A stretch of DNA of 56,092 nucleotides, from positions 1 to 56,092 of IMG/VR virus record IMGVR_UViG_3300036851_000592, one strand, 5' to 3'. The notes below the pieces were generated by a model. It was given only the letters and a program-made list of their open reading frames with translations. It did not search any database and was not told the origin of the DNA. Position 1 is the first letter of the stretch. Each line of letters starts with the position of its first letter. This document shows, piece by piece, positions 11,331 to 56,092 of this stretch. The stretch comes from a virus. Both the position numbers and the translations under genes were made by a program.

Positions 11331-11944
11331 GAGCGCGGCCATGATACCTGGTGTCCTCTCTGGTAGCGAAACACCTGATCGCAAAACCGGTCGGGCGCTA
11401 CGCCCGAAGGAACGGGGAACGCCTGTTGCTGGGCTGGCGTCCACGAAGCCCGCCGCGGCCGCGAGCGGCCCGAGGCCCCGAAGGTCACCACCAGCGACAA
11501 AGTTCGCGTGGCATTCCGATCGCCCTTGACGGGGCGCTGATCCATCGACCAGTAATCGGCAATGCCTCGCGTCAACCAGATGATCGGCGTCACCGGTTGC
11601 CAGCGCTCGTCGAGCGCCGCGATTCCGATCCGCAGGACCGAGCCCAGCACATCGGGCGCCTCCTCGTCGACCCGCTCGGCATATTCCGGCAGGACTCCGT
11701 CAATCGTAAATTCGAGCGATGTCGCCGTGCCGTTGATAACCGCTTCGAGTTCCGGCAGCGCCTTGAACACGCCGGCGCCGATATAGCGGTCGCCGGAGGG
11801 AAGATCGGTCGAGGGGATGCCGGCATCGACGTCGCTGAATCCCGACCACAGATGGAGCGCCGGATCGGATTCCAGCTTGAAAAACAGGCCGCGGTTGCCT
11901 GAAGTTCGAAAAAGCGCGGAGGTGGCTTCGTCGATATAAACCAT
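11327..11944 (-). CDS. Tail assembly / baseplate protein
   Basis: 205 residues starting MVYIDEATSALFRTSGNRGL. Beta-rich, with LFFKLESDPALHLWSGFSDV and a C-terminal Arg-rich tail. The position, after the tape measure and before the NlpC-like and J-like genes, matches minor tail proteins that build the initiator complex. ATG at 11944 overlaps the previous stop (TGATG). Exact family not assigned. Confidence 0.6.
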   Translation of the reverse strand: MVYIDEATSALFRTSGNRGLFFKLESDPALHLWSGFSDVDAGIPSTDLPSGDRYIGAGVFKALPELEAVINGTATSLEFTIDGVLPEYAERVDEEAPDVLGSVLRIGIAALDERWQPVTPIIWLTRGIADYWSMDQRPVKGDRNATRTLSLVVTFGASGRSRPRRASWTPAQQQAFPVPSGVAPDRFCDQVFRYQRGHQVSWPRS

Positions 11945-12675
11945 CAGCCTGCCTCCACGAATGAAATGCTGGGAGCGCCCTGATACCAGCCGAACGGCTC
12001 CCATGGGAGCGACGTGCCGGCCTCAAGCCGCATGAGGCAGCGCGGCCGGTAGAAATCGAGCGGCGTGCCATCCGCCACGGCCTCGCGCAATGTCGGCCGG
12101 ATTGCCACGACATAGGTAACGTTCTGGCCATCGGTCGTGTCCTCAGGCGTGATCGAGTCAATGTCGGCGATTCCGTAGGCGCGGAAGTTTTTCGTCTCGT
12201 GTAGGAAGCTGAATGTCTCGCCGCCCTCAAGCCGGGAGCCATTGATCACCTGGAACGTGAGCGTGCCGGCGTTGAGCGCATGGGCGCCGACGAGTACCGC
12301 GTCGATGTTGCCCTGGCTGAAGCCGACGAGATCGGAAAAGAGCGCGCCATCCGAATAGGTAATACCGCCTATAGGCAGCATTGGCTCACCATCCGTCCCG
12401 AGTGGATAGGGCGCGACATAATCGGTCAGCATCGGAACAATCATCGTGCGGACGGAGCCATTCAGGATATTGCGCAACCGCTGCCAATAGCGATGCTGGG
12501 CCGGCACGAACACGGGGATGCGCTGATACTTGACCGACCAGCGGCCGCCGCCGGTAAAGTCGATCGCATTTGTGTCGCCATTGAGCGAGCGGCCGCCCTC
12601 GATCGCGGAGCCCAGGATATCAATCGACATTTCGGCCGGCGGAAGCATGGAGATGCTATAAGTCTCGATCGCCAT
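11944..12675 (-). CDS. Minor tail protein
   Basis: 243 residues, beta-rich, with no enzyme motifs. It contains RWSVKYQRIPVFVPAQHRYW and a C-terminal FVEAG. It directly follows the tape measure, the slot of the lambda gpM/gpL group that starts tail assembly. The start overlaps the tape measure stop. Function inferred from position. Confidence 0.6.
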   Translation of the reverse strand: MAIETYSISMLPPAEMSIDILGSAIEGGRSLNGDTNAIDFTGGGRWSVKYQRIPVFVPAQHRYWQRLRNILNGSVRTMIVPMLTDYVAPYPLGTDGEPMLPIGGITYSDGALFSDLVGFSQGNIDAVLVGAHALNAGTLTFQVINGSRLEGGETFSFLHETKNFRAYGIADIDSITPEDTTDGQNVTYVVAIRPTLREAVADGTPLDFYRPRCLMRLEAGTSLPWEPFGWYQGAPSISFVEAG

Positions 12676-15137
12676 CAGCCGGTGTCCTTCTGATAGCGGC
12701 TGCTTACCGCGCCCAAGGTGCGCTGCAGCTCCTTGCGCTGCTCGGCCGCCGCGATCATCGATTGCCGCGCGATAAGCTCGAGCGTGCGCTCGGTCGCGTC
12801 GCCCTGCACATTGATCTGAGGCCCGCCGATCGTAATGGGCGGGAGCCCGCCGGCACCGAACCGGACGGCGCGAGCGAGCGCGACGCCCGCGCGGCTCACG
12901 ACTCGCTCGCCGTCTTCCAGCACCGCCACGCGCTCATTCGGCCGGAGATTACCTCCATGCAGCCGCGGCGCTCCCGCAACCTGAGCCGCGCTGACGAGGC
13001 GCAGCGGCGTCCTCGTCGAGCCGACGATTCCGCCCTCGTGAAAGATGTTCGCAAGAAACGAGCCCGCCAGGGCGCCGACACCGCCAGTGTCCGTCCCTCC
13101 GAGCTTGAGAAATTCGGTGACAAGGTTGATTACATCGGGAATGGCGCCTCTGATGAGGTCACGCCATGTACCAGTCTTGGTCACGAGATCGGCAAGGCCC
13201 TGCCCGAGCGATTGCCCGAGCGCCTCCGATTCCTGCTGGAGGTCGGCCTGACCCTCTTTGACTTCGGCCGACTTGGCAGCCAGTTCGCCATAAATCTCCG
13301 ATTTGCGCTTGAGCGCGGCAAGTTCCTCGTCGGTCAGGGTGATGCCGGCGCGCTGCGCTTCGAGGAGCTTTTCCTGTTCGAAGCGATACGCCTCGGCCGC
13401 TGCGATCGCGTCGTGGGTCTCGCCTCCGAGCCGGCGCATGGCATCAGCGGTCGCATTGATTTGCGCGCGCGCGAGTTCCTGGTCAGCGCCCTCCATGAAG
13501 GCGAAGCCCTTGCCGGGAAGTTGCGGCCCGAAGGCTTGGCCTCGGGGCATTCCCGGCGTGCCGGCCGCACCCATGACGCGATCGATGTAGGCCCAAACGT
13601 CGCCGATCGAACGGCCGCCGCCGATGACGGTCGGATTGGCGGTCGCGGCCCGGCCGCCCAGGACCGATTCGGCGAGCGCGTTCGGGTCGGCCCTGAGCGC
13701 CGAGAGCGCGCCGCCGGCGCCGAGAAAATGTGCTGCGTAAAGATTCCGCTCGCTCGCGGCGAAGCCCGCGGACCTGAGCGCGGCCGCATTCTCCTTGGCG
13801 AGGAGTTCGATCATCTGGCGCGAGATCGCCGGATCTGTTCTGAGATCGAGCGCGCGCCTGCCCATCGCCGCCGCGACTTCCTCGCCGATTACCTTCGGGA
13901 TCAATCGCATCCAGGTCGACTCGATGAACTGCCCGTGCCCGGTCGCCGATGAAAGCGGATTGCGGATATCAGCAACACCGCGGCTCTCGACCTGGATCAG
14001 GCGATCGATGAAACCGGGCGGGAGGCCAGGTGCTGTGAACGGATCGGATGTAACCGGCACGCGCGTCCCGCGCGCGGTCTCGAACGGGTTGCGCGCGACG
14101 CCTGGCAGCGTGCGCGCTAGGACACCGCCGCGCCCGGTGCGCTCCCAGGCCGGTCCCATCTTGGAAAGTTCCGCATTGATGTCGATCAGATTCTGTTTCC
14201 ACTCCTCGAGGAGCGGAAGCCCGACGCCGGTCGCCATCGCATTGTCGATTGCGCGGATGAGCCGGAGCCGCTCTTCGTCGAGCTTGATTATTTCCCGATG
14301 GGGCCCTGCGCGGCGCTTCTGGTCTTCCTCGACCTGGCGCTGCACGGCGTCGATATGAGCGCCGATCTTTTCGGCCTCGACGATCGCGGTCAGGAGTCCG
14401 GCGCCAATATTGGTCTTGAGGCGATCAAAGCCCGCGGTCAGGCGGTCGTCGAGTTCGTCGGCCTTTTTGACGAGTTCCGTATCCATGACGACGCCGAGCC
14501 GGATGGCCGCCGCCTCCTGGTCGCGCAATGCCTGCGCGCCGTCCTGGAGGTAAGGCAGTGCCTCGGCGGCGCTGCGGCCAAAGGCGGACATGGCTATTAC
14601 GGATTTGTCGCCTTCGGTGCGAGCATTGTGGATCAGGTCCACGACATCGAAAAATAGCGCCTTGTTCGAGCGCATCTGGCCATTCATATCGCGGAGCGGC
14701 ACGCCGTTGGCGTCGAGGATTTCCTTGAGCTTGTTGCCCTCGGTCGCGGCGATGCCAAGCTCCTTGTTGAACTTGGTCATGATGCCGACGAGATCGTCCT
14801 GCGTTCCGCCGCCCTGGCGCGCGGCGAAAGTCAATGTCTGGAGATCCCGGATTGACAATTGCGCGCGCTCGGCCTGGTCTTTGACTTGAGCAATGTCGGA
14901 AATCACGCTCTTGATGAACACGCCTGCGCCAACACCGAGCAAGGCCGGTCCGGCCGCGCCGCGGAAGGAATCGAGCACCGAGACCGATCCGGCAAGTGCG
15001 CCGCGCTGAGCCCGGGCGATATCGTCGGCCACATCCTTGGCGAATACCGACGTCATCGCGCGGGTGCGCGCGAAGCCGGCGCGGAGCCCGGCGTCGTCGA
15101 GCGTGACAGGAATGCGGAGCGGGGCGACAGGCAGCAT
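12675..15137 (-). CDS. Tape measure protein with lytic transglycosylase-like domain
   Basis: 820 residues. The N-terminal part has Ala-rich helices and a hydrophobic glycine segment (GPALLGVGAGVFIKSVI). The middle (about 370-490) looks like an SLT/lysozyme domain: FIDRLIQVESRGVADIRN with a Glu in the right place, then GHGQFIESTWMRLIPKV and YAAHFLGAGGALSAL. The C-terminal part contains coiled coil and a Gly-rich region. It sets tail length and probably degrades peptidoglycan during entry. CRISPR spacer 6 matches 13413-13442 in this gene (29/30). Confidence 0.88.
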   Translation of the reverse strand: MLPVAPLRIPVTLDDAGLRAGFARTRAMTSVFAKDVADDIARAQRGALAGSVSVLDSFRGAAGPALLGVGAGVFIKSVISDIAQVKDQAERAQLSIRDLQTLTFAARQGGGTQDDLVGIMTKFNKELGIAATEGNKLKEILDANGVPLRDMNGQMRSNKALFFDVVDLIHNARTEGDKSVIAMSAFGRSAAEALPYLQDGAQALRDQEAAAIRLGVVMDTELVKKADELDDRLTAGFDRLKTNIGAGLLTAIVEAEKIGAHIDAVQRQVEEDQKRRAGPHREIIKLDEERLRLIRAIDNAMATGVGLPLLEEWKQNLIDINAELSKMGPAWERTGRGGVLARTLPGVARNPFETARGTRVPVTSDPFTAPGLPPGFIDRLIQVESRGVADIRNPLSSATGHGQFIESTWMRLIPKVIGEEVAAAMGRRALDLRTDPAISRQMIELLAKENAAALRSAGFAASERNLYAAHFLGAGGALSALRADPNALAESVLGGRAATANPTVIGGGRSIGDVWAYIDRVMGAAGTPGMPRGQAFGPQLPGKGFAFMEGADQELARAQINATADAMRRLGGETHDAIAAAEAYRFEQEKLLEAQRAGITLTDEELAALKRKSEIYGELAAKSAEVKEGQADLQQESEALGQSLGQGLADLVTKTGTWRDLIRGAIPDVINLVTEFLKLGGTDTGGVGALAGSFLANIFHEGGIVGSTRTPLRLVSAAQVAGAPRLHGGNLRPNERVAVLEDGERVVSRAGVALARAVRFGAGGLPPITIGGPQINVQGDATERTLELIARQSMIAAAEQRKELQRTLGAVSSRYQKDTG
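13413..13442 (+). other. Self-match of CRISPR spacer 6 (29/30)
   Basis: The first 30 bases of spacer 6 (55722-55751) match here on the plus strand; only the first base differs. The spacer is antisense to the tape measure gene. The two bases after the match differ from the array, which sets the spacer-repeat junction. The 5' flank is CGTC and the 3' flank ATCAG. Confidence 0.93.
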
Positions 15138-15741
15138 TATTTCTTGCGTCCTCCTCGCATCAGTGAGCGCATGGCCTTCTTGATATTCTGAGGAGTGGCC
15201 GGCACCAGCGATTTCTTATCGCTCTTTCCGGTGCCGAAGATGGAATCGAGCATGTCGAGCCGCCCTTCATATGCGAGGAGAATGCCGCTCAGGCTGGTGT
15301 TCAGCGTCTCCTCCTCTGTCCAGCCTAGCCATCCGGTTCCCACTTGGAACAACCACCTGAAGTGTTCCTCGTGGGTGATCAGTTTCCCGGGTCGGTCCCT
15401 CCGCCTTCAGCGCCCGGTGGTTTGGGCTGTTCAGAGCGGCCGCCAGTCTGGAGGCCCTGAATATATCGCGTCAGCGGCCGCACCAGATTATCGAGCCCCG
15501 TCCTGAAAACCTGTTCCTCGGCTTGCTCGAATTTGATGCCAGAGCCGGCCGAGACAATCTTGGCATAGGCGCTCAAATCGAACGCGGCGAGGCGATCATA
15601 TGCGAGCGCATACCCATTGAAATATTCGTTGATCGCCTTTGCCGCGGCGAGAGTTGGCCGCAACTTGACGGTCCCGCCGGCGAGATCGAGATCAATCTCG
15701 CCATAGCCGAGGACGGTCTCGGACTTCTTGTCCTCAGCCAT
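15137..15741 (-). CDS. Frameshifted tail chaperone GT (G plus T by -1 shift)
   Basis: Read from the G start (15741) to the slippery site at 15388-15382, then in the -1 frame to 15137. After the shift the frame gives LITHEEHFRWLFQVGTGWLG, joining smoothly to the T domain WTEEETLNTSLSGILLAYEG. No stop interrupts the shifted frame. The T part alone (15137-15352) has no convincing start, only an internal TTG. In lambda, G and GT chaperone tape measure and tail tube assembly; the same is expected here. Confidence 0.85.
15379..15741 (-). CDS. Tail assembly chaperone (G-like)
   Basis: 120 residues starting MAEDKKSETVLGYGEIDLDL. The N-terminal part (GTVKLRPTLAAAKAINEYFN) fits tail chaperones found between the tail tube and tape measure genes. 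The C-terminus is a flexible Gly/Pro-rich linker ending at a stop directly after a GGGAAAC slippery sequence. Most ribosomes should stop here to give G. A minority would shift into the T frame to give GT. Confidence 0.82.
   Translation of the reverse strand: MAEDKKSETVLGYGEIDLDLAGGTVKLRPTLAAAKAINEYFNGYALAYDRLAAFDLSAYAKIVSAGSGIKFEQAEEQVFRTGLDNLVRPLTRYIQGLQTGGRSEQPKPPGAEGGGTDPGN
15382..15388 (-). promoter_or_regulatory. Programmed -1 frameshift site GGGAAAC
   Basis: On the minus strand the heptamer is G GGA AAC in the G frame, the X XXY YYZ form and one base different from lambda's GGGAAAG. The G stop codon follows at once (15381-15379). Slipping back one base opens the T frame. A downstream stimulatory structure was not examined. 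Confidence 0.85.
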
Positions 15742-16202
15742 CAGTCAGATGCCTCCGTCTCCGTGATCGTCCCCGAGTCGATCTCGATATTGCAGTTGGA
15801 CGCGACGATCTGATTCGGGCCGCCGACATTCACGGTCTTGGAAAAGACCTTGCCCTTGAAAGTGAATGTCGTCGGCGTGGCGCCAGTCTGGTCGAGCGCG
15901 TCGTTCAGTTCGATCTTGAAGTTGTAGGCATAGTCCGAATCGCGCGCTTCGAGGAGGCGGATCTGGCCGACATCATCGGAGTCCTGACCGAGCTGCATGG
16001 CGAGCGCGCCGTCATCGAACGTGCCCTTGAATTTGCGCGTGCCACGCTGATCGAGACTGTTGTGGCGGATGACTTCGTATACCCGACCGAACTCGCCGAG
16101 GTTTACGATTTCGCCGACCAGCAGATAGTCTTCATCGGTTGCGGGAACCAAGGCGCGGGTGCCGATGTAAAGTTTCGACCCGGCCGAAGTGTGAACTGTC
16201 AT
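15741..16202 (-). CDS. Major tail (tube) protein
   Basis: 153 residues, beta-rich. It begins MTVHTSAGSKLYIGTRALVP, with the pattern LVGEIVNLGEFGRVYEVI and then RGTRKFKGTFDDGALAMQL, as in phage tail tube subunits. A C-terminal FTFKGKVFSKTVNVGG follows. It is the slot between the tail terminator and the G chaperone. It should polymerise into the tail tube. CRISPR spacer 5 matches 15797-15826 (29/30), on the sense strand. Confidence 0.85.
   Translation of the reverse strand: MTVHTSAGSKLYIGTRALVPATDEDYLLVGEIVNLGEFGRVYEVIRHNSLDQRGTRKFKGTFDDGALAMQLGQDSDDVGQIRLLEARDSDYAYNFKIELNDALDQTGATPTTFTFKGKVFSKTVNVGGPNQIVASNCNIEIDSGTITETEASD
15797..15826 (-). other. Self-match of CRISPR spacer 5 (29/30)
   Basis: The first 30 bases of spacer 5 (55656-55685) equal the reverse complement here except at spacer position 6 (A in spacer, G here). 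The change would be Gly to Ser in the tail tube protein, so the spacer probably derives from a close relative. The 5' flank on the protospacer strand is AATG. Confidence 0.93.
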
Positions 16203-16253
16203 AACCTTCGCTCCTTCCAGTTTCGCGCGGGCGCCATGGGCGCGCGGCGATGT

Positions 16254-16664
16254 TTAGGTTCGGTACATCACTTCGAACGTCAAGATGGCAACACCGTGCT
16301 TCTCGTCGCCCTCGCCATCGTAACCCATGCGCGTGCGGGCGAGAACGGTATTGAGCGCGAGCCCGCCCAGCCGTGGATTCGCAGCGATCACAGCCTCGAC
16401 CGGTTCGCATAGTCCGTCGAGCGTTTCGTCGATTCCCTCGACCTTCGCGATGTGCAGTTCCAGGAACACTGAGAGATCCCGCAATAGCCGCGGGTCATTG
16501 ACGTCCTGCTGGGAGTTTTCCTCATTCGTATAGATGAGCGCGACCGGCATTTCGGATTGCGCGGTGCGCCTTGTGCGCGTCATGAAAACGCGACCGGTCA
16601 GCGAAAGGACCGTGTCGACTTCGGCCGCGATCGCCTCGCGGATCAACTGGCGCTTGTGCGTCAT
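16254..16664 (-). CDS. Tail terminator (gpU-like)
   Basis: 136 residues. MTHKRQLIREAIAAEVDTVL, then the VFMTRTRRT basic strand and EMPVALIYTNEE, the layout of gpU-type tail terminators that cap the tube. A C-terminal AILTFEVMYRT strand completes the fold. The gene lies between the head-tail joiner and the tube gene. Its ATG overlaps the previous stop. Confidence 0.75.
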   Translation of the reverse strand: MTHKRQLIREAIAAEVDTVLSLTGRVFMTRTRRTAQSEMPVALIYTNEENSQQDVNDPRLLRDLSVFLELHIAKVEGIDETLDGLCEPVEAVIAANPRLGGLALNTVLARTRMGYDGEGDEKHGVAILTFEVMYRT

Positions 16665-16972
16665 GGCGCAAGCTCCAGGTCGATGACCATCATGCCTTCC
16701 GAGTCCTCACGGAAATCCTTCACGGAATAGTCGATCCCTTTGGCGGTGATCAGCGTCACACCGCGAACGAGTTCGTCTTCAAGATCGGCGATCCTGACCG
16801 CGAGCGTCGTCACCTTGGTCGACGTACCCTCCTCGCCCTGGAGCGTCGCGTAGTAATTCGAATCGTAGATGCCGGTCACGGTCTGGGGCAGGCCCGAGAC
16901 GCCGTAAGTGATCACCGCCTCGGTCGGGAAGGTGTTGCGGACGACCTGGTTGAGGTGATCGAAATCGACCAT
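16661..16972 (-). CDS. Head-tail joining protein (gpFII-like)
   Basis: 103 residues. Small beta-rich protein with TVTGIYDSNYYATLQGEEG and a conserved acidic C-terminal strand (GMMVIDLELAP). In lambda-like phages this slot, before the tail terminator, holds the FII connector that attaches tail to head. Called from size, composition and position. Confidence 0.65.
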   Translation of the reverse strand: MVDFDHLNQVVRNTFPTEAVITYGVSGLPQTVTGIYDSNYYATLQGEEGTSTKVTTLAVRIADLEDELVRGVTLITAKGIDYSVKDFREDSEGMMVIDLELAP

Positions 16973-16974
16973 GG

Positions 16975-17664
16975 CTATTCGCGCTCCATGATCATGTTCC
17001 GGGTATCGAGCAGCGCGCCGTCGCCGGCACCGGCGTAGCCGAGTCCGCGCAGAAACGCCGTGATGTCTTGCCGGGCACGTTCGTTCAGCACTTCAATGAT
17101 GAGACGCGGGTGCCAGCGCTTGAGCGTTTCGGCCGCGCCTTCCAATACGCGAAGCTCGAAGGTTTCAACATCAATCTTGATTGCCGAGACCCGACCGATA
17201 TCGAGCGAGTCGACGCGAACGGTCCTGACCCTGATGCGAGGCTCGCTCTTGCGGAGCAAGCTCGCCCCGCTGGTCAGGTGAACCTTGTCATTGAAACCGA
17301 TAGACGCGTTGCCATCCTGATTCGAAGCGGCCGCCTCGATGATCTCGACGTCTACGTGGTTCAGATGAGCGTTGTTTCGGATGCGCTCGCACATGACAGG
17401 CAATGGCTCGATCGCGATCGCGGTCGCGCCCATCTTCGCAGCGACGATCGAGAACACTCCGCTATAGGCGCCGATGTCGAGGACCGTTCCGCCCGAATGA
17501 CACATGGCCTGCCAAGCCTTCAGCGTGTCAGGCTCGAATGCGCCTTTGGCGCGCACATGGCCGCAGATGCGATCGTCATCGAGCATCGCCACGCACAGGC
17601 TTCCGGCTGGAACCGTCATGGCTTGCGGCGAAGCCGCTAGCGGCTTCGCCGCTACGCCGCCCAT
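16975..17664 (-). CDS. FkbM-family SAM-dependent methyltransferase
   Basis: About 229 residues from the ATG at 17664; the ATG at 17619 is an alternative start. Rossmann SAM-binding motif GGTVLDIGAYSGVFSIVAAK, then AIAIEPLPVMCERIRNNA and IKIDVETFELRVLEGA, all typical of FkbM methyltransferases that often methylate sugars. It closes a four-gene cassette with two glycosyltransferases and a Rossmann protein, between the capsid and neck genes. The target could be a virion or host-surface glycan (inference). Confidence 0.82.
   Translation of the reverse strand: MGGVAAKPLAASPQAMTVPAGSLCVAMLDDDRICGHVRAKGAFEPDTLKAWQAMCHSGGTVLDIGAYSGVFSIVAAKMGATAIAIEPLPVMCERIRNNAHLNHVDVEIIEAAASNQDGNASIGFNDKVHLTSGASLLRKSEPRIRVRTVRVDSLDIGRVSAIKIDVETFELRVLEGAAETLKRWHPRLIIEVLNERARQDITAFLRGLGYAGAGDGALLDTRNMIMERE
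17625..17652. repeat. Perfect 28-bp palindrome
   Basis: The 28 bases are their own reverse complement: GCGGCGAAGCCGCTAG followed by CGGCTTCGCCGC. It lies at the junction of the FkbM and glycosyltransferase genes and includes the latter's stop codon. As RNA it folds into a hairpin. There is no T tract, so a processing site or a scar from cassette insertion is as likely as a terminator. Confidence 0.9.
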
Positions 17665-18332
17665 GCCTGCTTCACCCAGCTTACGTCGCAGTTGTCGGGT
17701 TTGCGCATTCCCCCGAACGCAATGACCGAGCACCCACGCGGGGCGCGATCGGGATGAAGATCGAGATCCCGATAGGACATGAAGAAACCCGGAGGCGTCA
17801 CGTCTTGCAGAAGCGTCGCGCGCGGATGCAGAAGCTCGATGACGCGCTGATCTCCATACTGCGCGCAACGGCGCATCCATTCTTGAGCGTCGGGCTCGAA
17901 GCCGCGCCAGACATCGTCGCCGAAATTCCGGCCCATCGTCATGACGCAAGACCCGTAGCGGCATGGGTAGCTCGCGTGTCCGGCCGCGCGGGTGAAGTTT
18001 CCGCAGATGGCGAAGCCATCCTTATCCGCCGTCCGCTCGAGCGGAGTTATGTCGCCGATGACCACGGTGTCGAGGTCGAAATAAATGACGCGAGCGCCCG
18101 CGCGCCAGCTGGTATCGAAGAGCTTCATCTTGCCCCACCAGCCGATCAGCCGGTGATCGCCGATCGCGACCGTTTCGTAGCCGGCAAGCTCGTTCGGCTT
18201 GTCGGTCAAAACGACGAAGCGATGCGCGTGGACGAAATACCGCCTCACCATCGCGCGCAATCGATGCACATAGGCGACCGGGTATTTCGAACCGGTGCGA
18301 ACGCACGCGATTATGGTCTTAGGGTTTTCCAA
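17652..18332 (-). CDS. Glycosyltransferase with DxD motif
   Basis: About 226 residues from a TTG start at 18332. The long open frame upstream is out of phase with the neighbouring gene and unlikely to be coding. VIYFDLDTVVIGDITPL holds a DxD motif for metal and nucleotide-sugar binding, as in GT-A folds. FVVLTDKPNELAGYETVAIG precedes it. It overlaps the DUF115-like gene by a few codons, so translation is coupled. Donor and acceptor unknown. Confidence 0.7.
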   Translation of the reverse strand: MENPKTIIACVRTGSKYPVAYVHRLRAMVRRYFVHAHRFVVLTDKPNELAGYETVAIGDHRLIGWWGKMKLFDTSWRAGARVIYFDLDTVVIGDITPLERTADKDGFAICGNFTRAAGHASYPCRYGSCVMTMGRNFGDDVWRGFEPDAQEWMRRCAQYGDQRVIELLHPRATLLQDVTPPGFFMSYRDLDLHPDRAPRGCSVIAFGGMRKPDNCDVSWVKQAWAA

Positions 18333-18960
18333 GGAGCGCCAGGCCCTCCTCGATCGTAACCCGCGGGAACACCTTGATGCCGGAATAGGGACAGGCATTG
18401 AACACTTCGATCTTCGCTTCGGCCAGAGCCTTCGCCGGATGCGCGTAACATTCAGCCCAGGCCTTCCACGCCTTTTCGCTTTGCGTGCGTTTCTTGCCGT
18501 AGTGCTGCTCGTTGTGATGCCATTTGCCATCGGCGCTCTTGCCATAGTCATAGCCGAACAGCACGATCCGGCGCGGCCGCTTGAGGTAAGCAAGATTGAG
18601 CGCGCCATAGCCTGAGGTTCCGCCGGCCGCGATCGCTGTCGGAACTTTCGAAATCATCTGATGGTTGATGCGCAAAACGAAATTCACGTTCGGCAGGACG
18701 GGAAGCGTGTTCCGCTCGGCGACCGCCCACACGATCGGCATAGTCACCTGAGCCAGGCGCGGCGCCCATTCGATGTAGCGCGGCCCGTCGAGCCCGAATC
18801 CAAGGTCCGCCCATGGCATGTCGAAAATCGAGCCTTTGACCGCTAATACCCGCCAACGCGGGTCGCGGAACCGGTTAAGATCGAAACCAGCGAGCGACGT
18901 TCCGCCGGCGACGACGGCTAATGGCTTATCGCCCCAATCGGCCGGACCTACGTCGCCCAT
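18319..18960 (-). CDS. Rossmann-like protein (DUF115-like or sialyltransferase-like)
   Basis: 213 residues starting MGDVGPADWGDKPLAVVAGG, with GGAG upstream. It has a nucleotide-binding-like N-terminus (AVVAGGTSLAGFDLNRFRD) and a central INHQMISKVPTAIAAGGTSG, then RRIVLFGYDYG. This recalls DUF115 and CST-I-like sialyltransferase families that act in surface glycan synthesis. The position between two glycosyltransferases supports a sugar role. Precise activity unknown. Confidence 0.55.
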   Translation of the reverse strand: MGDVGPADWGDKPLAVVAGGTSLAGFDLNRFRDPRWRVLAVKGSIFDMPWADLGFGLDGPRYIEWAPRLAQVTMPIVWAVAERNTLPVLPNVNFVLRINHQMISKVPTAIAAGGTSGYGALNLAYLKRPRRIVLFGYDYGKSADGKWHHNEQHYGKKRTQSEKAWKAWAECYAHPAKALAEAKIEVFNACPYSGIKVFPRVTIEEGLALLGKP

Positions 18961-19688
18961 TGGTTTAGCTCCTTCATGAACTCTTGAGCGAACGGCACTT
19001 TTGAGAAACCCGGGACGCATGGCGATCCATCCGTGTGATGTACGATCTTCGGCTCTATAGCAGAGTCGGAGTAACCTGCGAGCCAATTCCAGGCAACCGG
19101 CAGATCGCCGATAAGGCGGTCCTCAAGCCAGCAGAAGCGATGAAGATCGCGGCCGGGCACCGCGTTCACGAGTTCTTTCGTGAGCGCGGCATTGGCCGCG
19201 TGAGCGCAGTTGAACAGCATCAGGCTCGACCAATTCTTACGCGGATATGCCGCCTGCGGCTGACCCGCCATCTTGACCGATGACGACGGAACGTGATCGT
19301 GCTTCACGCACATCACCGCGAAGCTCGAGTCGGCCGAGGCAAAAAGTTCCTCGAGATTCGCGCGCACGAGCATGTCGCAATCCATAAACAGCGCCCAGCC
19401 CTTGCGACCGGCCGCCTCGCGCACGGCGAGATGAGGGACAAGGAACCGCGAGATTGCGAATTCAGTTGCCATTCCGGCATCGCTGATCTCGTCCCACATC
19501 TGCCGGCGGCCGCGCTCGTCGACCGAATATCGCGTCGGCCGCCAGTACAAACCCTGCGCCCGAAGATCATCGAGCACGAGGCCATGAACCGGGATCGGCT
19601 CGACGAGATGCCGCTCGCAAGAGCGCCTCGCGACTGCGAACGCCGCGGCGTCGCGAGGGTCAAAGCCGATCCAGATACTGCGGTCCAC
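18948..19688 (-). CDS. GT-A fold glycosyltransferase
   Basis: 246 residues with a GTG start behind a GGGAGG ribosome site. WIGFDPRDAAAFAVARRSCE at the start and WALFMDCDMLVRANLEELF in the middle (DxD, residues DCD) match nucleotide-sugar glycosyltransferases. First gene of the glycan cassette after the capsid gene. It may glycosylate capsid or tail protein; no donor can be deduced. Confidence 0.75.
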   Translation of the reverse strand: MDRSIWIGFDPRDAAAFAVARRSCERHLVEPIPVHGLVLDDLRAQGLYWRPTRYSVDERGRRQMWDEISDAGMATEFAISRFLVPHLAVREAAGRKGWALFMDCDMLVRANLEELFASADSSFAVMCVKHDHVPSSSVKMAGQPQAAYPRKNWSSLMLFNCAHAANAALTKELVNAVPGRDLHRFCWLEDRLIGDLPVAWNWLAGYSDSAIEPKIVHHTDGSPCVPGFSKVPFAQEFMKELNQWAT

Positions 19689-19719
19689 GCGCGCGGGGCC
19701 TCCCTCTTCAAAAAAGAGG

Positions 19720-20778
19720 CTATGCGCGCCGGGCGCGCTGCAGCATTGCCGGGCGCGTGCAGAGGAAGAGCGGATAGCTGTAAACCTCGACCTTCACCCA
19801 TGCGCCGCGGTCGCGGTCAGGGATCTGCATGCCATAGACGGGCTGGCCCAGCGTGTTGATCCACGGCATGAACTCGGCCGGGCCCATGACGTGCTGAAAG
19901 ACGCCAGGCGCGTTGACCGGAAAGAACTTCGCCTTGTCAGTCGGAATGCCGACCGTCGAGGCATCCGCTGTCCCATCGGTCGCACCCTCGTCGTAATTGT
20001 CGGTGCCGCGATAGTTGTGCCAGTAGATCTTGCCGAAATAGAACGTGTCGAACTCGTTGGCCTCGCGAAGCTCGGCCGCCGCCGACCAGCTCAGATAGGT
20101 ATCGCGCACCTTGGGATGATCGACGAAGGCGTCCCAGAACGCATCGCCGACAAGCGCATGCACCTGCGTCGTAGGCATCCATGAGCCGGCCGCCGCGCGC
20201 TGCATCTGCCGGCGCACTTGGTTGCAAAGCCCGCGGATGTTCGTCGTCGCCGTGGTCAGCGCGAAGTTGATTTCAGTCGCCTGCGTCGCGCTCCACTCGG
20301 TAAACCAGTTTTCGAGTGTCGAGCCATCGGCGTCGAGCACGATGCCCTGGACGGCGCCGAGACGCATGTGCTCGAACGTGAGGCTGATGTCCGCCTGAAT
20401 GCCGTTCGCGCCCGTGTAGCGGCGCTGCACTTCCGCCATGACTTGCGACAGCTCGGTTTCTGACCCGAATTCGCGGATGCCGGTCAATTCGTCGGCCATA
20501 ATCGTGTCGCCCTTGGCGAGACGATGGATGCCGAAATTTCGGATATCGCGTTTCTCGGTCGTGCGCTGATCGATCGGGGCACCACGCTCGGTCGCCAAAA
20601 TAAGCTTGAGCACGCCGTTGCGCTGCTCGATCGCGACGTATTTGTTGCGGATGGGAACCGGATCGAACAGGCCGGGCATCGAACCCAGCATGGTCGGCCG
20701 GAACGGCTGACGGTTAAACGCGCCGGTCAGGGAGACCGTGTCAAACGCGTCCTGGTTGAAGATGTCCAACATGACCAT
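19720..20778 (-). CDS. Major capsid protein (gpE family)
   Basis: 352 residues. Starts MVMLDIFNQDAFDTVSLTGA; the segment RQPFRPTMLGSMPGLFDPVP and the C-terminal YSYPLFLCTRPAMLQRARRA are typical of the lambda gpE family (PF03864). It forms the shell after protease maturation. Flanked by the decoration gene upstream and, unusually, by sugar-transfer genes downstream. No N-terminal delta-domain extension is seen, in keeping with a separate scaffold. Confidence 0.92.
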   Translation of the reverse strand: MVMLDIFNQDAFDTVSLTGAFNRQPFRPTMLGSMPGLFDPVPIRNKYVAIEQRNGVLKLILATERGAPIDQRTTEKRDIRNFGIHRLAKGDTIMADELTGIREFGSETELSQVMAEVQRRYTGANGIQADISLTFEHMRLGAVQGIVLDADGSTLENWFTEWSATQATEINFALTTATTNIRGLCNQVRRQMQRAAAGSWMPTTQVHALVGDAFWDAFVDHPKVRDTYLSWSAAAELREANEFDTFYFGKIYWHNYRGTDNYDEGATDGTADASTVGIPTDKAKFFPVNAPGVFQHVMGPAEFMPWINTLGQPVYGMQIPDRDRGAWVKVEVYSYPLFLCTRPAMLQRARRA

Positions 20779-20808
20779 GATCGGAGTTCCTTTTCTCGAT
20801 GCTGGGCG

Positions 20809-21186
20809 TTAACGAGCGACGATGTCGATCGCCTTGAGCGCGGTCACGTAGGCCGCCTCTCGCGGGTTGTCGGTATCATCGGCAGGGATGGTGAGTTCGG
20901 AGAGATTGACGACGCTGTCGCGTGCCGTATAGACGGCGCCAGTGACGTCGCCATCGGTCGCGTCGACATTGTCGTACATCACTCCAACGGGCGCCGTGAT
21001 CACAGCGTCAGCGGAATTCAAGAGGCCATCCGCGGCGATGATCTTTCCGGCGCCATCAAGCTGCACGACCTGACCGGCGACGAGAACCTGACCGCTAAGC
21101 ACGGTCGCGGTTTCGCGCGAGAACTGAGGATCAGCCTCCCACACGATGTACTCGCCGGTGTGTTTGCCTTCAGTGAGGACAGACAT
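20809..21186 (-). CDS. Head decoration protein (gpD-like)
   Basis: 125 residues. HTGEYIVWEADPQFSRETAT followed by LSGQVLVAGQVVQLDGAGKI is the usual pattern of gpD-type head-stabilising proteins. It binds the expanded capsid at three-fold sites. Lies between protease/scaffold and capsid genes, as in lambda. CRISPR spacer 1 matches 20938-20967 (28/30), on the sense strand. Confidence 0.87.
   Translation of the reverse strand: MSVLTEGKHTGEYIVWEADPQFSRETATVLSGQVLVAGQVVQLDGAGKIIAADGLLNSADAVITAPVGVMYDNVDATDGDVTGAVYTARDSVVNLSELTIPADDTDNPREAAYVTALKAIDIVAR
20938..20967 (-). other. Self-match of CRISPR spacer 1 (28/30)
   Basis: The first 30 bases of spacer 1 (55390-55419) match the reverse complement here except at spacer positions 1 and 26. 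The position-26 change converts Thr to Ile in the decoration protein. The 5' flank on the protospacer strand is CAAT and the 3' flank GCCGT. Confidence 0.92.
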
Positions 21187-21242
21187 ATGTTGATCTCCTC
21201 GGTTTCAGAATTTCGATCTACCGCGCCGACCGGCGCTACGCG

Positions 21243-21692
21243 CTACTTACCGGCGAAGATGTTGGCCGTGGCGTTCACCTTCTTCGCGGCTTCGTCCCAC
21301 ATCGAATTGATAGATGCGCGATCGCTGCCGCCGCTTGCCTGATGCTGGCCTCTGATCGGCGTCGTCTCGCCGACCGCGGTCATCTTCGTGAAAAGCTGAG
21401 CGCGGACGTGCTCCATGCTGGCGCCCGAGGCGATGAATTGATCGGCAAGCTTCGCGTCGATCGCCGGGCACTGCTTGTGCGCGAGCGCCACCGCCGCGCG
21501 GATTTCCTTGCCGCTCTCGATGCGGGCTTTCGCCTGCTCGATGGTCACGCCTTCCTTGATCAGCGTCGCGGCCATCGCCGGAACGCCGGCGGTGGCGCAT
21601 AGCGTCGCGATTTCAGCGGCCGCGTTGGCGATCGCCTGAGCATCGACGGGTGCCGGCGGCGCGGCCGGCGCAGGAGTCGGAGTCGTCGTCAT
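21243..21692 (-). CDS. Nested scaffold protein (Nu3-like), internal in-frame start
   Basis: An ATG at 21692 in the protease frame is preceded by GAAGGAGAAATCCAAA, an ideal ribosome site at ideal spacing. It would yield 149 residues beginning MTTTPTPAPAAPPAPVDAQA: a Pro/Ala linker and a helical C-terminal domain shared with the protease. Lambda makes its Nu3 scaffold this way. Inferred from position and the ribosome site. Confidence 0.72.
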   Translation of the reverse strand: MTTTPTPAPAAPPAPVDAQAIANAAAEIATLCATAGVPAMAATLIKEGVTIEQAKARIESGKEIRAAVALAHKQCPAIDAKLADQFIASGASMEHVRAQLFTKMTAVGETTPIRGQHQASGGSDRASINSMWDEAAKKVNATANIFAGK

Positions 21693-22403
21693 TTTGGATT
21701 TCTCCTTCGGTTGACCGGCGGCGCGGGCGTCCGCCAGTTGAGCAATCATCAAGGCCGGATCGAAGTGCCCGGCTTTGGCCCAGACTTCGGCCTTCGCCTT
21801 GAGCGGCTCGGGCGCGCGCAGATAGGCGCGGAAATCGAACGCCGTTACATCCTCGGCCGGGTCTTCGATCTTGCCCGTGGCAAAGCCCGCCTCGATCGCC
21901 TCGTCGTCATCGAGCCAGGTTTCCTCACCCATGAGCTTCTTGCATTCAGCCTCGGTCTTGCCTGAGCGGCGCGCGTAGATTTTCGCCATCTGCAGATCCA
22001 TCTTGTCGAGCACCTTGGCGGTCATCCGGTGATCGTCGGCCGTGCCCCAGGTCATGCCCGAGCCGTTGTGGATCATGATCAGCGAACCGGCAGCCATGAT
22101 GATCTGGTCGCCGGCCATCCCGATCACCGAAGCGGCGCTCGCCATCAGCGAATCGTTGACGATCGTCACCTTCACGGCGCCGTCAGCCTTGTGCGCGACG
22201 AGCAGATTGTGAATAGCAACGCCCTCGGTTGCAAAGCCGCCGCCCGAATTGATGTGGACCTCGATATCGCCCGTGGTCTCGGCGAGCGCGTTCAACACAT
22301 CGGCGACAGTGAAGCCATTTTGGTCCCAATAATCGAAATATCCGACCGGGCCATAGAGATAGATCTTGCCATTTCTAATCAGACGGCTTGTCATCGACGA
22401 CAT
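21243..22403 (-). CDS. ClpP-type prohead protease with C-terminal scaffold
   Basis: 386 residues. The N-terminal 190 residues are an S14/ClpP-like serine protease: IEVHINSGGGFATEG, the nucleophile region SLMASAASVIGMAG, and LIMIHNGSG with the His. After about residue 215 an Ala/Pro-rich linker leads into a helical scaffold-like region. The layout equals lambda gpC/Nu3. The start overlaps the portal stop. It processes the portal or scaffold during head maturation. Confidence 0.9.
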   Translation of the reverse strand: MSSMTSRLIRNGKIYLYGPVGYFDYWDQNGFTVADVLNALAETTGDIEVHINSGGGFATEGVAIHNLLVAHKADGAVKVTIVNDSLMASAASVIGMAGDQIIMAAGSLIMIHNGSGMTWGTADDHRMTAKVLDKMDLQMAKIYARRSGKTEAECKKLMGEETWLDDDEAIEAGFATGKIEDPAEDVTAFDFRAYLRAPEPLKAKAEVWAKAGHFDPALMIAQLADARAAGQPKEKSKMTTTPTPAPAAPPAPVDAQAIANAAAEIATLCATAGVPAMAATLIKEGVTIEQAKARIESGKEIRAAVALAHKQCPAIDAKLADQFIASGASMEHVRAQLFTKMTAVGETTPIRGQHQASGGSDRASINSMWDEAAKKVNATANIFAGK

Positions 22404-23922
22404 CCTTCTTTGGCTGTTGCGCGACGCCGGCGACCGTCACCTTGCGCGGATCGCTATCGAGCACGAGGCCAAGTTCATCGGCGCGGCGATTGTCCTCGGC
22501 TATCTCTTCGTCGACGGTCTGAACCGCGTAGCCGCGCTCGGACACATGCGTCGCGCGCGACAGGAAGCCTGCGCGAACTTCGTCCCGGCGCGCGGCAACG
22601 TCCTGCGTCGGATTGATGTAAGGCCAAGCCTGAGGCGCCCATTTCACCCGCACGACGTCGCGAAGCGTTACGCCATTGCGCAACCTGATTTTGCCAGCGA
22701 GCCAGGCTGTCTCGGCCCAGCGCCTGAGGACAGGCGCGGCCCACTGAAAGACGACGAGGCCATGCTGATACATTTCGACGGCGCGGCGGAATTCGTTGAC
22801 GGCAGCGCGCCATGTCCGGTCGTTGACGTGCTTGTAGTTGCCGGAAAGCTGTTCAAACAGAATGCCGGCCGCGACCGCGACGCGGCGTTCCTGACCTTCC
22901 ATGAAAGATTCGTAAGAATCTTCAAGTTTCGGCGGGTCGGAGAAGGTGATCTCCTGATCAGCGCGCAATAAATTCATGAGGCCAGGCTCGAGGCTCGCGA
23001 TTGCGACGCCGTCCTCATTGGCGTCGCCTTGACCTGAGAGAATCTCGTTCTCGTTGCCAGTCTGCGGGCCGCCTCTGACGAAACCGGTGAACAGCGCTCC
23101 GATCTGCTGTTTGACAAGTTGCGCGTCGTCATACTTGTCGAGATCGTGGAGCTTCATGAGCGCGCGTGTTAGCCACGGCTCGCCGCGGATTTCGCCCGGC
23201 CGCCGCACCTGGGACAATTGCAACACCTCGCTCGCAGGCACCCTCACGGTATCGGCCGAGAAGGCGAAGCCAAGCATCCCGAAATCGAACGGATGCTGGC
23301 GATACATGTGGTAAGCCACGCGCCGGTCGAGCCGATCGAATTCTATTCCCTGGCGGATGATGCTGTTGGGTCCGACCCACTCGTTCTTTTCGTTCGGGAC
23401 GAATTCCGACTCGACCACCTGAAGCTGAAGCGGAACGACGAAGCCATCATCGAGCGCGCGCACGCGGAATCGGGTGAAACAATCGCCGCCCTCAAACATC
23501 GAGCCGACCGCCGTCGCCTGCAGACCATAGAAATCCTGCCGGCCGTATGAGTCGCATTCCGCGCTCCAGTCCTCGAACAGATCGACCAGTTCCCGGTTCA
23601 GGTCTTTGTCCTTCGTGCGGAATTGCGGCGTGATGCCGGTGCCGACGAAATTGACGACTGTCGTGCGCTTGGCATTATCGGCCAGGCCGTCTCGCCTGAT
23701 CTTGTCGCGCGAGCGCGCGCGCAAGGTGGGAAGCGCCGCGCCGAGCAGGCTATTGGGCCCGCTCGATGGCGCGACCCAATTGGAGGTGCGAGGACTCACG
23801 TAGCCGCCGGCGTCATAGCCGGTGTTGAGCCCGGCCGATCGGACGATTTCCGAGCGAATCGCCGGAACATAGACTTTCGAGCCTTTGATTCGGTAGCGCA
23901 TCGCTGCCACCTGATCGGGCAT
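22375..23922 (-). CDS. Portal protein (gpB family)
   Basis: 515 residues of the lambda portal family (PF05136). Seen: SRDKIRRDGLADNAKRTTVV (family hallmark), NFVGTGITPQFRTKD, and later VRRPGEIRGEPWLTRALMKL. It forms the dodecameric ring through which DNA is packaged and to which the neck binds. Located between gpW-like and protease genes; the stop overlaps the protease start. Confidence 0.93.
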   Translation of the reverse strand: MPDQVAAMRYRIKGSKVYVPAIRSEIVRSAGLNTGYDAGGYVSPRTSNWVAPSSGPNSLLGAALPTLRARSRDKIRRDGLADNAKRTTVVNFVGTGITPQFRTKDKDLNRELVDLFEDWSAECDSYGRQDFYGLQATAVGSMFEGGDCFTRFRVRALDDGFVVPLQLQVVESEFVPNEKNEWVGPNSIIRQGIEFDRLDRRVAYHMYRQHPFDFGMLGFAFSADTVRVPASEVLQLSQVRRPGEIRGEPWLTRALMKLHDLDKYDDAQLVKQQIGALFTGFVRGGPQTGNENEILSGQGDANEDGVAIASLEPGLMNLLRADQEITFSDPPKLEDSYESFMEGQERRVAVAAGILFEQLSGNYKHVNDRTWRAAVNEFRRAVEMYQHGLVVFQWAAPVLRRWAETAWLAGKIRLRNGVTLRDVVRVKWAPQAWPYINPTQDVAARRDEVRAGFLSRATHVSERGYAVQTVDEEIAEDNRRADELGLVLDSDPRKVTVAGVAQQPKKDVVDDKPSD

Positions 23923-24793: not shown

Positions 24794-25012
24794 GTGATCA
24801 GGATCGACAGGAATATTCCGCTTCCGCCATACAAAGCCAAGGGAAGGAGACCGGGCAACATTTACCCGTTTCGCATGATGGCGATCGGAGATAGCTTTTT
24901 TACCGAGAACGTCCGGGCCTTCAATTCTGTGCCGAATGGATTCGGCCGATGGGAGTCTCGAACGATCGAAGAGAAGGGCAAGCGAGGCATCAGGATTTGG
25001 CGGATCGGCTGA
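24794..25012 (+). CDS. Small phage protein (MIRIDRNIPLPP type)
   Basis: 72 residues with a GTG start two bases after the previous stop. The N-terminus (IDRNIPLPP) and central YPFRMMAIGDSFFTENV fit a small family common in proteobacterial phages, role unknown. CRISPR spacer 4 is identical over 30 bases to 24841-24870 in this gene. A strong terminator follows directly. Confidence 0.65.
   Translation: MIRIDRNIPLPPYKAKGRRPGNIYPFRMMAIGDSFFTENVRAFNSVPNGFGRWESRTIEEKGKRGIRIWRIG
24841..24870 (-). other. Exact self-match of CRISPR spacer 4 (30/30)
   Basis: The first 30 bases of spacer 4 (55590-55619) equal the reverse complement of this stretch. The next two array bases (GG) do not match (TT here), so the repeat probably begins with GG in the later units. 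The 5' flank on the protospacer strand is GCGA and the 3' flank TTGGC. The spacer is antisense to the 24794 gene. Confidence 0.96.
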
Positions 25013-33750: not shown

Positions 33751-34362
33751 TCAAGTCCCCATCGATTTGAGGCTGTTCGCGAGGCCCTTCAAGCGCTCGG
33801 CCATCGCGGCGCGCTCCTCAGGCGTCCGCGGATATTTTTTCGCCTCTTCCGCTTCGCGTTGTCGGCGATTGTACTCGGCGATGTGCTGCTGAGCGCGCAG
33901 CCTCACGACGTCGAATCGCGCCTTGATCGTCTCGCAAGCTTCGCGAACATCCGAGGCCTTCGGGTTGTGACCGAGTCGACCAGGCAAGCCGGTGTACACG
34001 TCGACGACTTCGATGCAAACGCGCTCGCTGTAGTTCGAGAGAACTTCGATCAACGCGATGAAGTAGCCTTTGGGATCATGCGGAGCGAGTTCGGGAAATC
34101 CGCGCATGAGCAATTCGGCGAAACGCTGTGCACGGAGGATATTGGGATCGTCCCTGAGCGGCCGCGCGCTGTAATCGAACTCGGCGATGAACCGCTGACA
34201 GACTTCGGGCGGAAGGAGTTTCGAGTTCGACGCCGGCGGCGCGCTAGTGTTCAGAACGGCCAGTGCGTTCGCGAATCCTTTCGCCGACATCGCGGACTGC
34301 CTCTGCAAGTCCCTGCCGCGTGCCAGGTCGAGCGACGGTTGTCTTGCGATGGTTGTCGTCAT
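33751..34362 (-). CDS. Replication-associated protein, possible helicase loader
   Basis: 203 residues (MTTTIARQPSLDLARGRDLQ). A strong GGAGGG lies six bases before this ATG, although it overlaps the upstream gene by about 119 bases; the ATG at 34290 is an alternative. Helical, with LLPPEVCQRFIAEFDYSARP and a charged C-terminal coiled coil. Position after the replication initiator suggests a loader or organiser; no ATPase motif is visible. Confidence 0.55.
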   Translation of the reverse strand: MTTTIARQPSLDLARGRDLQRQSAMSAKGFANALAVLNTSAPPASNSKLLPPEVCQRFIAEFDYSARPLRDDPNILRAQRFAELLMRGFPELAPHDPKGYFIALIEVLSNYSERVCIEVVDVYTGLPGRLGHNPKASDVREACETIKARFDVVRLRAQQHIAEYNRRQREAEEAKKYPRTPEERAAMAERLKGLANSLKSMGT

Positions 34363-35533
34363 AGGCGCCCTCCATCAGGCTGGTGAACGATTCGGCTTGA
34401 AGCAGGAATTTGAACGAGCAGCGAAAGTCGGTCCTCTCACCACGGAGGAATTTGCTTGCGCGAACTTTTGCCATTGCGATTTTCCATCCGTCAAGTCCGC
34501 CGCAATCGGCGAGTCTCGCCCTGAGCTTGCCCTTTCGTGTGTCGGAAAGGTTCTGGCACTGAGCGAGGCTGAGGTCTCGGGCAACATCATTCCACAGCGC
34601 GACCGCCTGCTTGAGTTCGGAAGCAGAGACCAAAGGCGGCTTTGTCGCGCTCGCCGAGGACGAGAGAGATACAGGGGATTCTGTTTCAATGGGATCTCCG
34701 AAGGAAAAGTCAGTCTCCGAACTATCCAGAATCTCCTCCCTCTTATCTCCTCCTATTATCTCCTCCCTCTGAAACATCTTTTCCACTTTCGCAGGTTGCG
34801 ACAAGGCTGTCGCATTTCCAATTTCCCCATTCGCATTTGCGACAGATTTTGTCGCAAGTGCGACTGAGCCAGTCGCAAGTTGTTTTTTGCCGTATACTTT
34901 CCTCATGCAAAGCTCAGCAAGCTTTTCCCTAGAATAGATCGACAGAAATTCCTCTACCGACATGTCCTTTTTGAGTATATTGCAGGATTTGCAAGCGGCA
35001 ACGAGGTTGTTGAGATCGTTAGTTCCATTCTTTTTACGTGAGACTTTATGGTCTATCTCCAGCGTGTTCGCGCGCTTGCGGTAGTAAGTGATTTCCGAAT
35101 GGCAGTAATAGCACTGGCCTTTCTGACGCTCGCATAGGAGTTTGGGAATTGTACTGAATAGATCGGCCGGTTTCTTTGGCTCCTGGCTTTCCCAACTGAC
35201 GAACTTAGCAACGTCGTCGTCGATCGGGAATAGATATGACGGCGATTTCGGGCGTTGCCATTGGCAGAAGTTCCGAATTGCCCCTAAATGTTGCCCATCA
35301 CTATGAAAGTCACGAATCATGTTCTCGGCCGCAAGTATATGTAGGGTCTTGATGATATCGACCGGGTCGACCGGAAAGAGGCGAACTTTCAGGGTTGTCG
35401 CACGCCATTTGAAGATGCCGCGGTCATCGGATTCGGTCAATAATCCTATGAAAAGGAGCCGGGCTTCATAGGGAACATTTAGGAATGCATCGTCGGTAAA
35501 AAGACCCGGATGAACACTTCTGATTCTGGCCAT
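34244..35533 (-). CDS. Replication initiation protein with inserted HNH nuclease domain
   Basis: 429 residues. The N-terminus (MARIRSVHPGLFTDDAFLNV, then DDRGIFKWRATTLKVRLFPV) is a phage replication initiator type with a winged-helix fold. Residues 125-215 hold an HNH domain: CYYCHSEI, LEIDHKVSRKKNGTNDLNNL and CKSCN. The C-terminal part resumes initiator-like sequence (LWNDVARDLSLAQCQNLSDT). The HNH segment is AT-richer than its surroundings, suggesting insertion. An iteron-like cluster lies inside the gene. Likely binds the origin and may nick DNA. Confidence 0.72.
   Translation of the reverse strand: MARIRSVHPGLFTDDAFLNVPYEARLLFIGLLTESDDRGIFKWRATTLKVRLFPVDPVDIIKTLHILAAENMIRDFHSDGQHLGAIRNFCQWQRPKSPSYLFPIDDDVAKFVSWESQEPKKPADLFSTIPKLLCERQKGQCYYCHSEITYYRKRANTLEIDHKVSRKKNGTNDLNNLVAACKSCNILKKDMSVEEFLSIYSREKLAELCMRKVYGKKQLATGSVALATKSVANANGEIGNATALSQPAKVEKMFQREEIIGGDKREEILDSSETDFSFGDPIETESPVSLSSSASATKPPLVSASELKQAVALWNDVARDLSLAQCQNLSDTRKGKLRARLADCGGLDGWKIAMAKVRASKFLRGERTDFRCSFKFLLQAESFTSLMEGAYDDNHRKTTVARPGTRQGLAEAVRDVGERIRERTGRSEH
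34798..34876. repeat. Three GCGAC...GTCGC inverted repeats, candidate replication origin
   Basis: Three dyads occur within 79 bases: GCGACA-AGGC-TGTCGC (34798-34813), GCGACA-GATTT-TGTCGC (34839-34855) and GCGACTG-AGC-CAGTCGC (34860-34876). They lie inside the initiator gene, next to a pyrimidine-rich, AT-richer stretch at 34725-34795. Lambda has its iterons inside gene O, so this is a good origin candidate. It could also just be repeated coding sequence (LATxSVA). Confidence 0.65.
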
Positions 35534-55348: not shown

Positions 55349-55355
55349 AAGCCAC

Positions 55356-55908
55356 CCCTCACACCCTGCATCGGGGGGATGCCGATGACTTCGACGCGAC
55401 CGATGGCGACGTCATTGGCGACCCCTCACACCCTGCATCGGGGGGATGCCGATGACCGCATCATCCGCTCAGCCGAAAGCTTCGGCACCCCTCACACCCT
55501 GCATCGGGGGGATGCCGATGACTGAGTTTCTTGCTTTGGAGGCTGAGATACCGGCCCCTCACACCCTGCATCGGGGGGATGCCGATGACAACGGGTAAAT
55601 GTTGCCCGGTCTCCTTCCCGGCCCTCACACCCTGCATCGGGGGGATGCCGATGACTCGGCAGCCCGAATCAGATCGTCGCGTCCAGGCCCTCACACCCTG
55701 CATCGGGGGGATGCCGATGACATGGGTCTCGCCTCCGAGCCGGCGCATGGCGGCCCTCACACCCTGCATCGGGGGGATGCCGATGACCGCATCTGGCGAA
55801 GCGCCCGGCCCATGCGGGGCCCTCACACCCTGCATCGGGGGGATGCCGATGACCTTGACGCTGACCTTCTCGCCAGCGGCCGCGGTCCCTCACACCCTGC
55901 ATCGGGGG
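55356..55908 (+). CRISPR. Type V-like CRISPR array: 8 full repeats, 1 truncated, 8 spacers
   Basis: Eight identical 34-base repeats begin CCCTCACACCCTGCATCGGG and end GATGCCGATGAC, at 55356, 55423, 55489, 55556, 55622, 55688, 55754 and 55820. A 22-base truncated repeat is at 55887-55908. Spacers are 32-33 bases as drawn; self-matches suggest 30 bases with the last 2-3 belonging to the repeat. Inside the repeat, CATCGG and CCGATG form a 6-bp stem with a 7-base loop near the 3' end, the handle position for Cas12 crRNA. The degraded last repeat places the leader at the cas-gene side. No cas1, cas2 or tracrRNA was seen. Confidence 0.97.
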
Positions 55909-55952
55909 CGCATCAAGCCGATACAAGTTGAAGTTCTGGAGGAATACGAGCC
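55909..55952. other. Remnant region after the array
   Basis: After the truncated repeat comes CGCATCAAGCCGATACAAGT, with GCCGAT still resembling the repeat end, and then the ribosome site TGGAGG of the next gene. No coding potential seen. Confidence 0.6.
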
Positions 55953-56092
55953 ATGACCGACACCGACAAGCTGATAGAGCGGCTGGAGTTTTGGAGCAAA
56001 CACCAGTACCGCGTGGTTGATAGCCCTTGGGGAACAAGTCCCAACGGAGACCTTCGCTTAGCCGCCTCCGAACTCACCCGCCTGCGCCAGCG
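55953..56092 (+). CDS. 5' part of the small coiled-coil protein split by the contig ends (copy B)
   Basis: Starts MTDTDKLIERLEFWSKHQYR behind CTGGAGGAATACGAGCC. It runs off the right end and continues at bases 1-298 if the contig is circular. Near-duplicate of 53821-54024. In the circle it would lie between the CRISPR array and the HEPN gene, so the accessory genes alternate with copies of this gene. Confidence 0.7.
   Translation, partial: MTDTDKLIERLEFWSKHQYRVVDSPWGTSPNGDLRLAASELTRLRQ
55988..56092. repeat. Terminal direct repeat, right copy
   Basis: Identical to bases 1-105. See the left copy for the caveat about the internal third copy. Confidence 0.9.

Follow-up and report, generated by a model that had tools for sequence, protein, structure and literature searches.

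Why would a phage carry a CRISPR array in which half of the spacers match genes of the phage itself? The question is raised by IMG/VR record IMGVR_UViG_3300036851_000592, whose full 56,092 nt were analysed here (the window). A 105-nt terminal direct repeat (1-105 is identical to 55988-56092) closes the record to 55,987 bp, and the phage genome is therefore probably complete. The phage is siphovirus-like, with recognisable genes for terminase, portal, head protease, decoration, major tail protein, tape measure and tail fibre; its capsid protein shares at most 48% identity with cyanophage proteins and at most 42% with proteins of Aurantimonas phage AmM-1. Elsewhere in the genome, 30641-31924 (-) encodes a ParB-like domain fused to a DNA methyltransferase, and the product of the ORF at 34244-35533 (-) resembles a replication initiation protein whose N- and C-terminal parts are separated by an HNH endonuclease domain (residues ~130-215), which may be a homing or intein-like insert. 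Misassembly and a host fragment were both ruled out as sources of the array: the contig closes on itself, one ORF crosses the join of the record ends intact, right beside the array, and half of the spacers match the phage. Over 9723-23262 (13.5 kb), a second contig (L006) is 100% identical and supports the assembly there.

A preliminary description of this DNA had claimed that four of the eight spacers match the genome that carries them. When the self matches were recounted by script and by BLAST, spacers 1, 4, 5 and 6 gave 2, 0, 1 and 1 mismatches rather than many more (Table 1). The target genes it had named (decoration, an island at 24.8 kb, tail tube and tape measure) were identified as described, and the near-identity of the matches supports its view that the spacers come from this phage or very close relatives. 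Its account of the array layout needed one minor correction, in that the spacers are 30-31 nt long and the 36-nt repeats vary in their first two bases.

Table 1. Coordinates of the effector gene, the array, its spacers and their self sites in the window
Feature	Position	Strand	Details
Cas12m-like effector P0001	54026-55348	+	440 aa; directly upstream of array
CRISPR array	55354-55920	+	nine 36-nt repeats, eight 30-31-nt spacers
Repeat starts	55354, 55421, 55487, 55554, 55620, 55686, 55752, 55818, 55885		last one (55885) degenerate
Spacer 1	55390-55420	+	20937-20967 (-), 2/31 mismatches, positions 1 and 26
Spacer 2	55457-55486	+	chance-level matches only in own genome; none in databases searched
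Spacer 3	55523-55553	+	chance-level matches only in own genome; none in databases searched
Spacer 4	55590-55619	+	24841-24870 (-), 30/30
Spacer 5	55656-55685	+	15797-15826 (-), 1 mismatch, position 6
Spacer 6	55722-55751	+	13413-13442 (+), 1 mismatch, position 1
Spacer 7	55788-55817	+	borderline similarity, ~18414-18443 (-), 8/30 mismatches
Spacer 8	55854-55884	+	chance-level matches only in own genome; no hit in viral_contigs
Self site of spacer 6	13413-13442	+	in tape measure gene 12675-15137 (-); 5' flank GTC
Self site of spacer 5	15797-15826	-	in major tail protein gene 15741-16202 (-), phrog_158; 5' flank ATG
Self site of spacer 1	20937-20967	-	in head decoration gene 20809-21186 (-), phrog_49; 5' flank AAT
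Self site of spacer 4	24841-24870	-	in 72-aa ORF 24794-25012 (+); 5' flank CGA

Chance does not account for these four matches, since none of 400 shuffled spacers found a site with fewer than 7 mismatches anywhere in the rest of the genome. The similarity of spacer 7 is at most suggestive, its mismatch level also being reached by 7 of the 400 shuffles; the look-alike stretch at 18412-18443 (-) sits in a glycosyltransferase-like gene. All four self sites fall within 11.5 kb that include the structural module. The 72-aa ORF that holds the sole perfect self match has a weak match to phrog_7597, a family of unknown function. Relative to the target mRNAs the guides are both sense and antisense, which argues that the target is DNA; RNA targeting was rejected as the main reading because guides occur in both orientations.

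What protein might use these guides? The first repeat begins 5 nt past the stop codon of the cas gene, whose product was assigned by PADLOC to Cas12f (44.4 bits, 2.4e-12, over 74-318) ahead of Cas12u1 (35.2 bits, 1.6e-9). Against a profile of five Cas12m-like proteins (from plasmid pMESIL02, phage Rctr197k and the IMG/VR loci L017, L018 and L019), it scored 36.5 bits (E 1.1e-10), compared with 8.6 bits for the best of 1000 shuffles; a two-sequence TnpB profile gave 24.1 bits, and UnCas12m4a aligned in weak collinear stretches. Ala266 is aligned at the catalytic Asp position of RuvC-I (the profile aligns DlGW with AlTW), Glu359 of RuvC is kept, and at the third position MAFFT aligns FDGDDG, with SARDCARMLL fitting too by eye. 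Among its five Cys residues there is no CxxC, and the TNB zinc finger is therefore missing; the insert bearing the RDRHLWQYE motif is also gone. His209-Arg210, within HRPLPPDA, aligned to all four full-length Cas12m proteins compared; in MmCas12m2, the His-Arg pair reads the last base of the crRNA handle, a terminal C (PMC10442227).

Known Cas12m proteins bind DNA beside a T- or C-rich PAM and leave it uncut; they read about 17-18 bp and give protection from phages and plasmids (PMC11013384, PMC10442227). The present effector is probably likewise a DNA binder that does not cut, although it has lost more than known Cas12m proteins (zinc finger and RuvC-I Asp), and its activity is uncertain. The locus resembles type V-M (MmCas12m2, GoCas12m, and MsCas12m on pMESIL02) in having a single effector, related in sequence to Cas12m, beside the array, no cas1 in the locus and no Cas1 in the record, a 36-37-nt repeat with an H-type pseudoknot and an AC end, a His-Arg pair in the WED region, and predicted binding without cutting. 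Unlike that type, the effector falls below the length of all Cas12m proteins compared (511-622 aa), lacks the CxxC zinc finger and carries Ala as its first RuvC residue, a position occupied by D, H or N in reported Cas12m proteins (triads D-E-D, H-D-D and N-D-D); moreover, its carrier is a closed 56-kb phage genome matched by half of the spacers. We label the protein Cas12m-like, as its sequence places it among Cas12m homologs, but stop short of classing it as V-M, since it departs from the family in the RuvC triad and the TNB zinc finger. As for type V-F, the PADLOC Cas12f model scores above Cas12u1, and the RuvC-I Asp is missing here.

At default limits, no relatives of the effector were found in viral_contigs, genome_contigs or phages. 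Raising E to 10 in phages and plasmids gave weak matches only, the best being a TnpB-like protein of Lactobacillus phages (E 0.09), and a two-row alignment with UnCas12m4a pieces retrieved no relatives. The predicted structure had a mean pLDDT of 41 for the sequence by itself and of 49 when three homologs were added; a fold search with it returned no match at E 0.001 or better; the predicted fold was therefore not used.

The repeat was compared as well. The V-M repeat architecture, an S1 stem with an H-type pseudoknot, is possible in each of the five V-M-type repeats compared, including that of this array, and in all five the two bases AC lie between the end of the second pseudoknot helix and the spacer. 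The pairing bases differ between this repeat and the four others, while the fold is kept. Shuffles of this repeat also allow such a pseudoknot in 7% of cases, so the support rests on the common placement and ending and not on the fold alone. The placement fixes the direction of the crRNA, and with it the side of the PAM, which is 5' on the matched strand. An Rfam scan gave no match, and the repeat itself had none in viral_contigs or genome_contigs.

Taken together, these features make it reasonably probable, in our judgment, that the locus works as a stand-alone CRISPR unit of the V-M kind, directed at close relatives of the phage through DNA binding without cleavage. Effector and array would probably be made as one transcript, and crRNAs with the V-M pseudoknot handle would guide the effector to matching DNA of a competing relative, where its binding would block transcription of the competitor's structural genes in the same cell. 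The spacers would have been taken from relatives with a common head-tail module and added singly at the cas-proximal end, and the phage's own sites would escape through lack of a PAM, seed differences, or both.

Is there a trace of such an escape? Three of the four self sites differ from their spacer, and within the 17 nt read by Cas12m the mismatches lie at guide positions 1 (spacer 1), 6 (spacer 5) and 1 (spacer 6); the second mismatch of spacer 1, at position 26, falls outside the read region. This clustering in the seed has P ~0.03-0.04, a post hoc value from only 3-4 events. None of the 5' flanks (AAT, CGA, ATG and GTC for spacers 1, 4, 5 and 6) is YYN, that is, the C/T-rich PAM of the Cas12m type, an outcome with a chance of ~0.32 by itself (measured YY frequency 0.25), and no two-base flanking motif is common to all four sites. 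With a source 97-100% identical and no selection, most flanks would be expected to keep the source PAM. Flanks and mismatches thus fit PAM or seed loss at the self sites, on small numbers and by a test conceived after the data had been seen. Spacer 4, with its 30/30 self match, counts against the use of the array as a weapon.

The same matches could instead serve RNA-guided self-regulation, in which the dead, zinc-finger-less effector would act in a TldR-like way, dampening or timing the phage's decoration, tail and tape measure genes, with the near-perfect self matches as functional tuning sites and not escaped targets. An effector predicted not to cut need not be lethal when it binds its own genome, late structural genes make up three of the four targets, and one spacer matches perfectly with the others off by one or two bases. 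Perfect, PAM-bearing targets would be expected for this role; instead, a single site of four is perfect, the others are mismatched in the read region, and there is neither a common flank motif nor a C/T-rich PAM. The guides match both strands, inside genes rather than at promoters, and the V-M phages used for comparison lack such self matches. We regard self-regulation, tuning sites included, as unlikely. The preliminary description had left the choice between a weapon and self-silencing undecided; the former fits better, and self-silencing fits less well with only one perfect site and no common flank motif. The read-region mismatches at positions 1 and 6, with no common motif and no C/T-rich PAM, favour self-avoidance over self-silencing, though they do not prove it.

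How the spacers entered the array bears on a further alternative. Read from the cas side, the repeats begin with AC three times, then GC, GG four times and GT, and eight of the nine are otherwise identical. Such stepwise base change would be expected from successive copying of new units from the cas-proximal repeat. As the phage is without cas1, acquisition is presumed to have relied on a host's proteins; no family match to a tyrosine integrase, a serine recombinase or Cas1 was found in the whole record. A host's Cas1-Cas2 might then simply have put replicating DNA of this very phage into the array by accident, with the self matches tolerated through weak binding or lack of a PAM. Half of the spacers matching one genome, and acquisition that must occur in trans, both fit this reading. 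Spacers 1, 5 and 6 are off by 1-2 bases, however, which calls for a source genome that differed slightly, or for changes afterwards; the four sites have no common acquisition motif, and spacers 2, 3 and 8 come from elsewhere. We therefore give accidental self-acquisition the least credence of the readings considered here.

The unit may also have decayed, with array and protein now inactive and the self matches recording old acquisitions from relatives. The losses in the effector (RuvC Asp, zinc-finger residues and inserts), the degenerate last repeat and the lack of a sigma-70-like promoter, none having been found upstream, would all be consistent with decay. So would the self-site differences, three of four of which alter the protein (V74F and T82I in the decoration protein, G128S in the tail protein; the remaining one is silent), as spacer drift would. 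Yet the 440-codon frame is still open with the codon usage of the genome, eight of nine repeats remain identical past their first two bases, and neither the pseudoknot nor the His-Arg pair has been lost, so that we consider a decayed unit rather improbable.

A source phage with perfect, PAM-bearing protospacers was not found in viral_contigs, phages, plasmids or L006. The last of these was the only close relative found; being 100% identical over 13.5 kb, it carries the same self sites and is no divergent relative with intact targets. Spacers 2, 3 and 8, searched as 21-mers, had no hit in viral_contigs, and the array gave no convincing spacer match in phages and plasmids. That neither a source phage nor an upstream sigma-70-like promoter was found also counts against the proposed use against relatives.

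Several known systems offer precedents. Type V-M is enriched in plasmids and occurs in some prophages, and CRISPR systems have been described as uncommon in phages with genomes under 200 kb (PMC11656645). SPV1 and SPV2, two archaeal viruses, carry spacers against one another, the corresponding locus of the carrier being mutated (PMC6858448); close viral relatives are the proposed targets here as well, and the carrier's own sites differ or lack a known PAM. Those mini-arrays have 1-2 spacers, no cas gene and a host effector, unlike the eight spacers and built-in effector of this phage. In huge phages, arrays occur without genes for acquisition; some of their spacers target structural genes of other phages, and a 'dCas14' has been proposed to act as a repressor (PMC7162821). 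The present locus resembles them in its compact array, in the lack of acquisition genes (Cas1 was searched) and in having structural genes among its targets; their genomes exceed 200 kb, and spacer matches to the carrier genome are not a feature reported there. TldR, a phage-borne nuclease-dead TnpB repressor, regulates host flagellin expression (PMC13418256). Like TldR, the effector here is predicted from its sequence to be a phage-encoded, RNA-guided, nuclease-dead member of the TnpB/Cas12 superfamily; TldR has no CRISPR array and acts on a host gene, whereas this array holds many guides against phage genes.

Inter-phage CRISPR is thus already known, and it is the combination that appears new: a closed 56-kb phage with its own zinc-finger-less dead effector and half-self spacers was not found in the literature searched, which included few subscription journals. 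If our reading is right, an ordinary-sized phage carries a minimal, non-cutting form of CRISPR interference and directs it at its closest relatives, and its own genome bears traces of self-avoidance. The locus would then be a bacterial counterpart to the archaeal SPV arrays with a built-in effector, would provide a very small DNA-binding Cas12 to study, and would allow a direct test of how a virus can maintain a weapon aimed at sequences nearly the same as those of its own genes.

Judging from a small sample of three records, phage V-M loci do not generally show self matching of this degree. The 20 spacer intervals of Rctr197k gave nothing below 6 mismatches over 26 nt against their own record. 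For L017, most hits in its own record were copies of the repeat located elsewhere, with one 20-base partial hit besides (E 0.009), and the ~20 spacers of L019 had no match with E <0.01; both records may be fragments. Cas12m-like genes with arrays lie at L017:10025-11881 (G001) and L019:10004-11539 (G002). The L019 protein seems to be without the RuvC-II Glu (VIKDS), and G001 has more repeat-like copies near 63 kb. In Virus Rctr197k (KX853510), the gene at L012:1169-3037, annotated as 'similar to transposase', encodes a Cas12m-like effector and adjoins an array at L012:3071-4585 with a V-M-type repeat.
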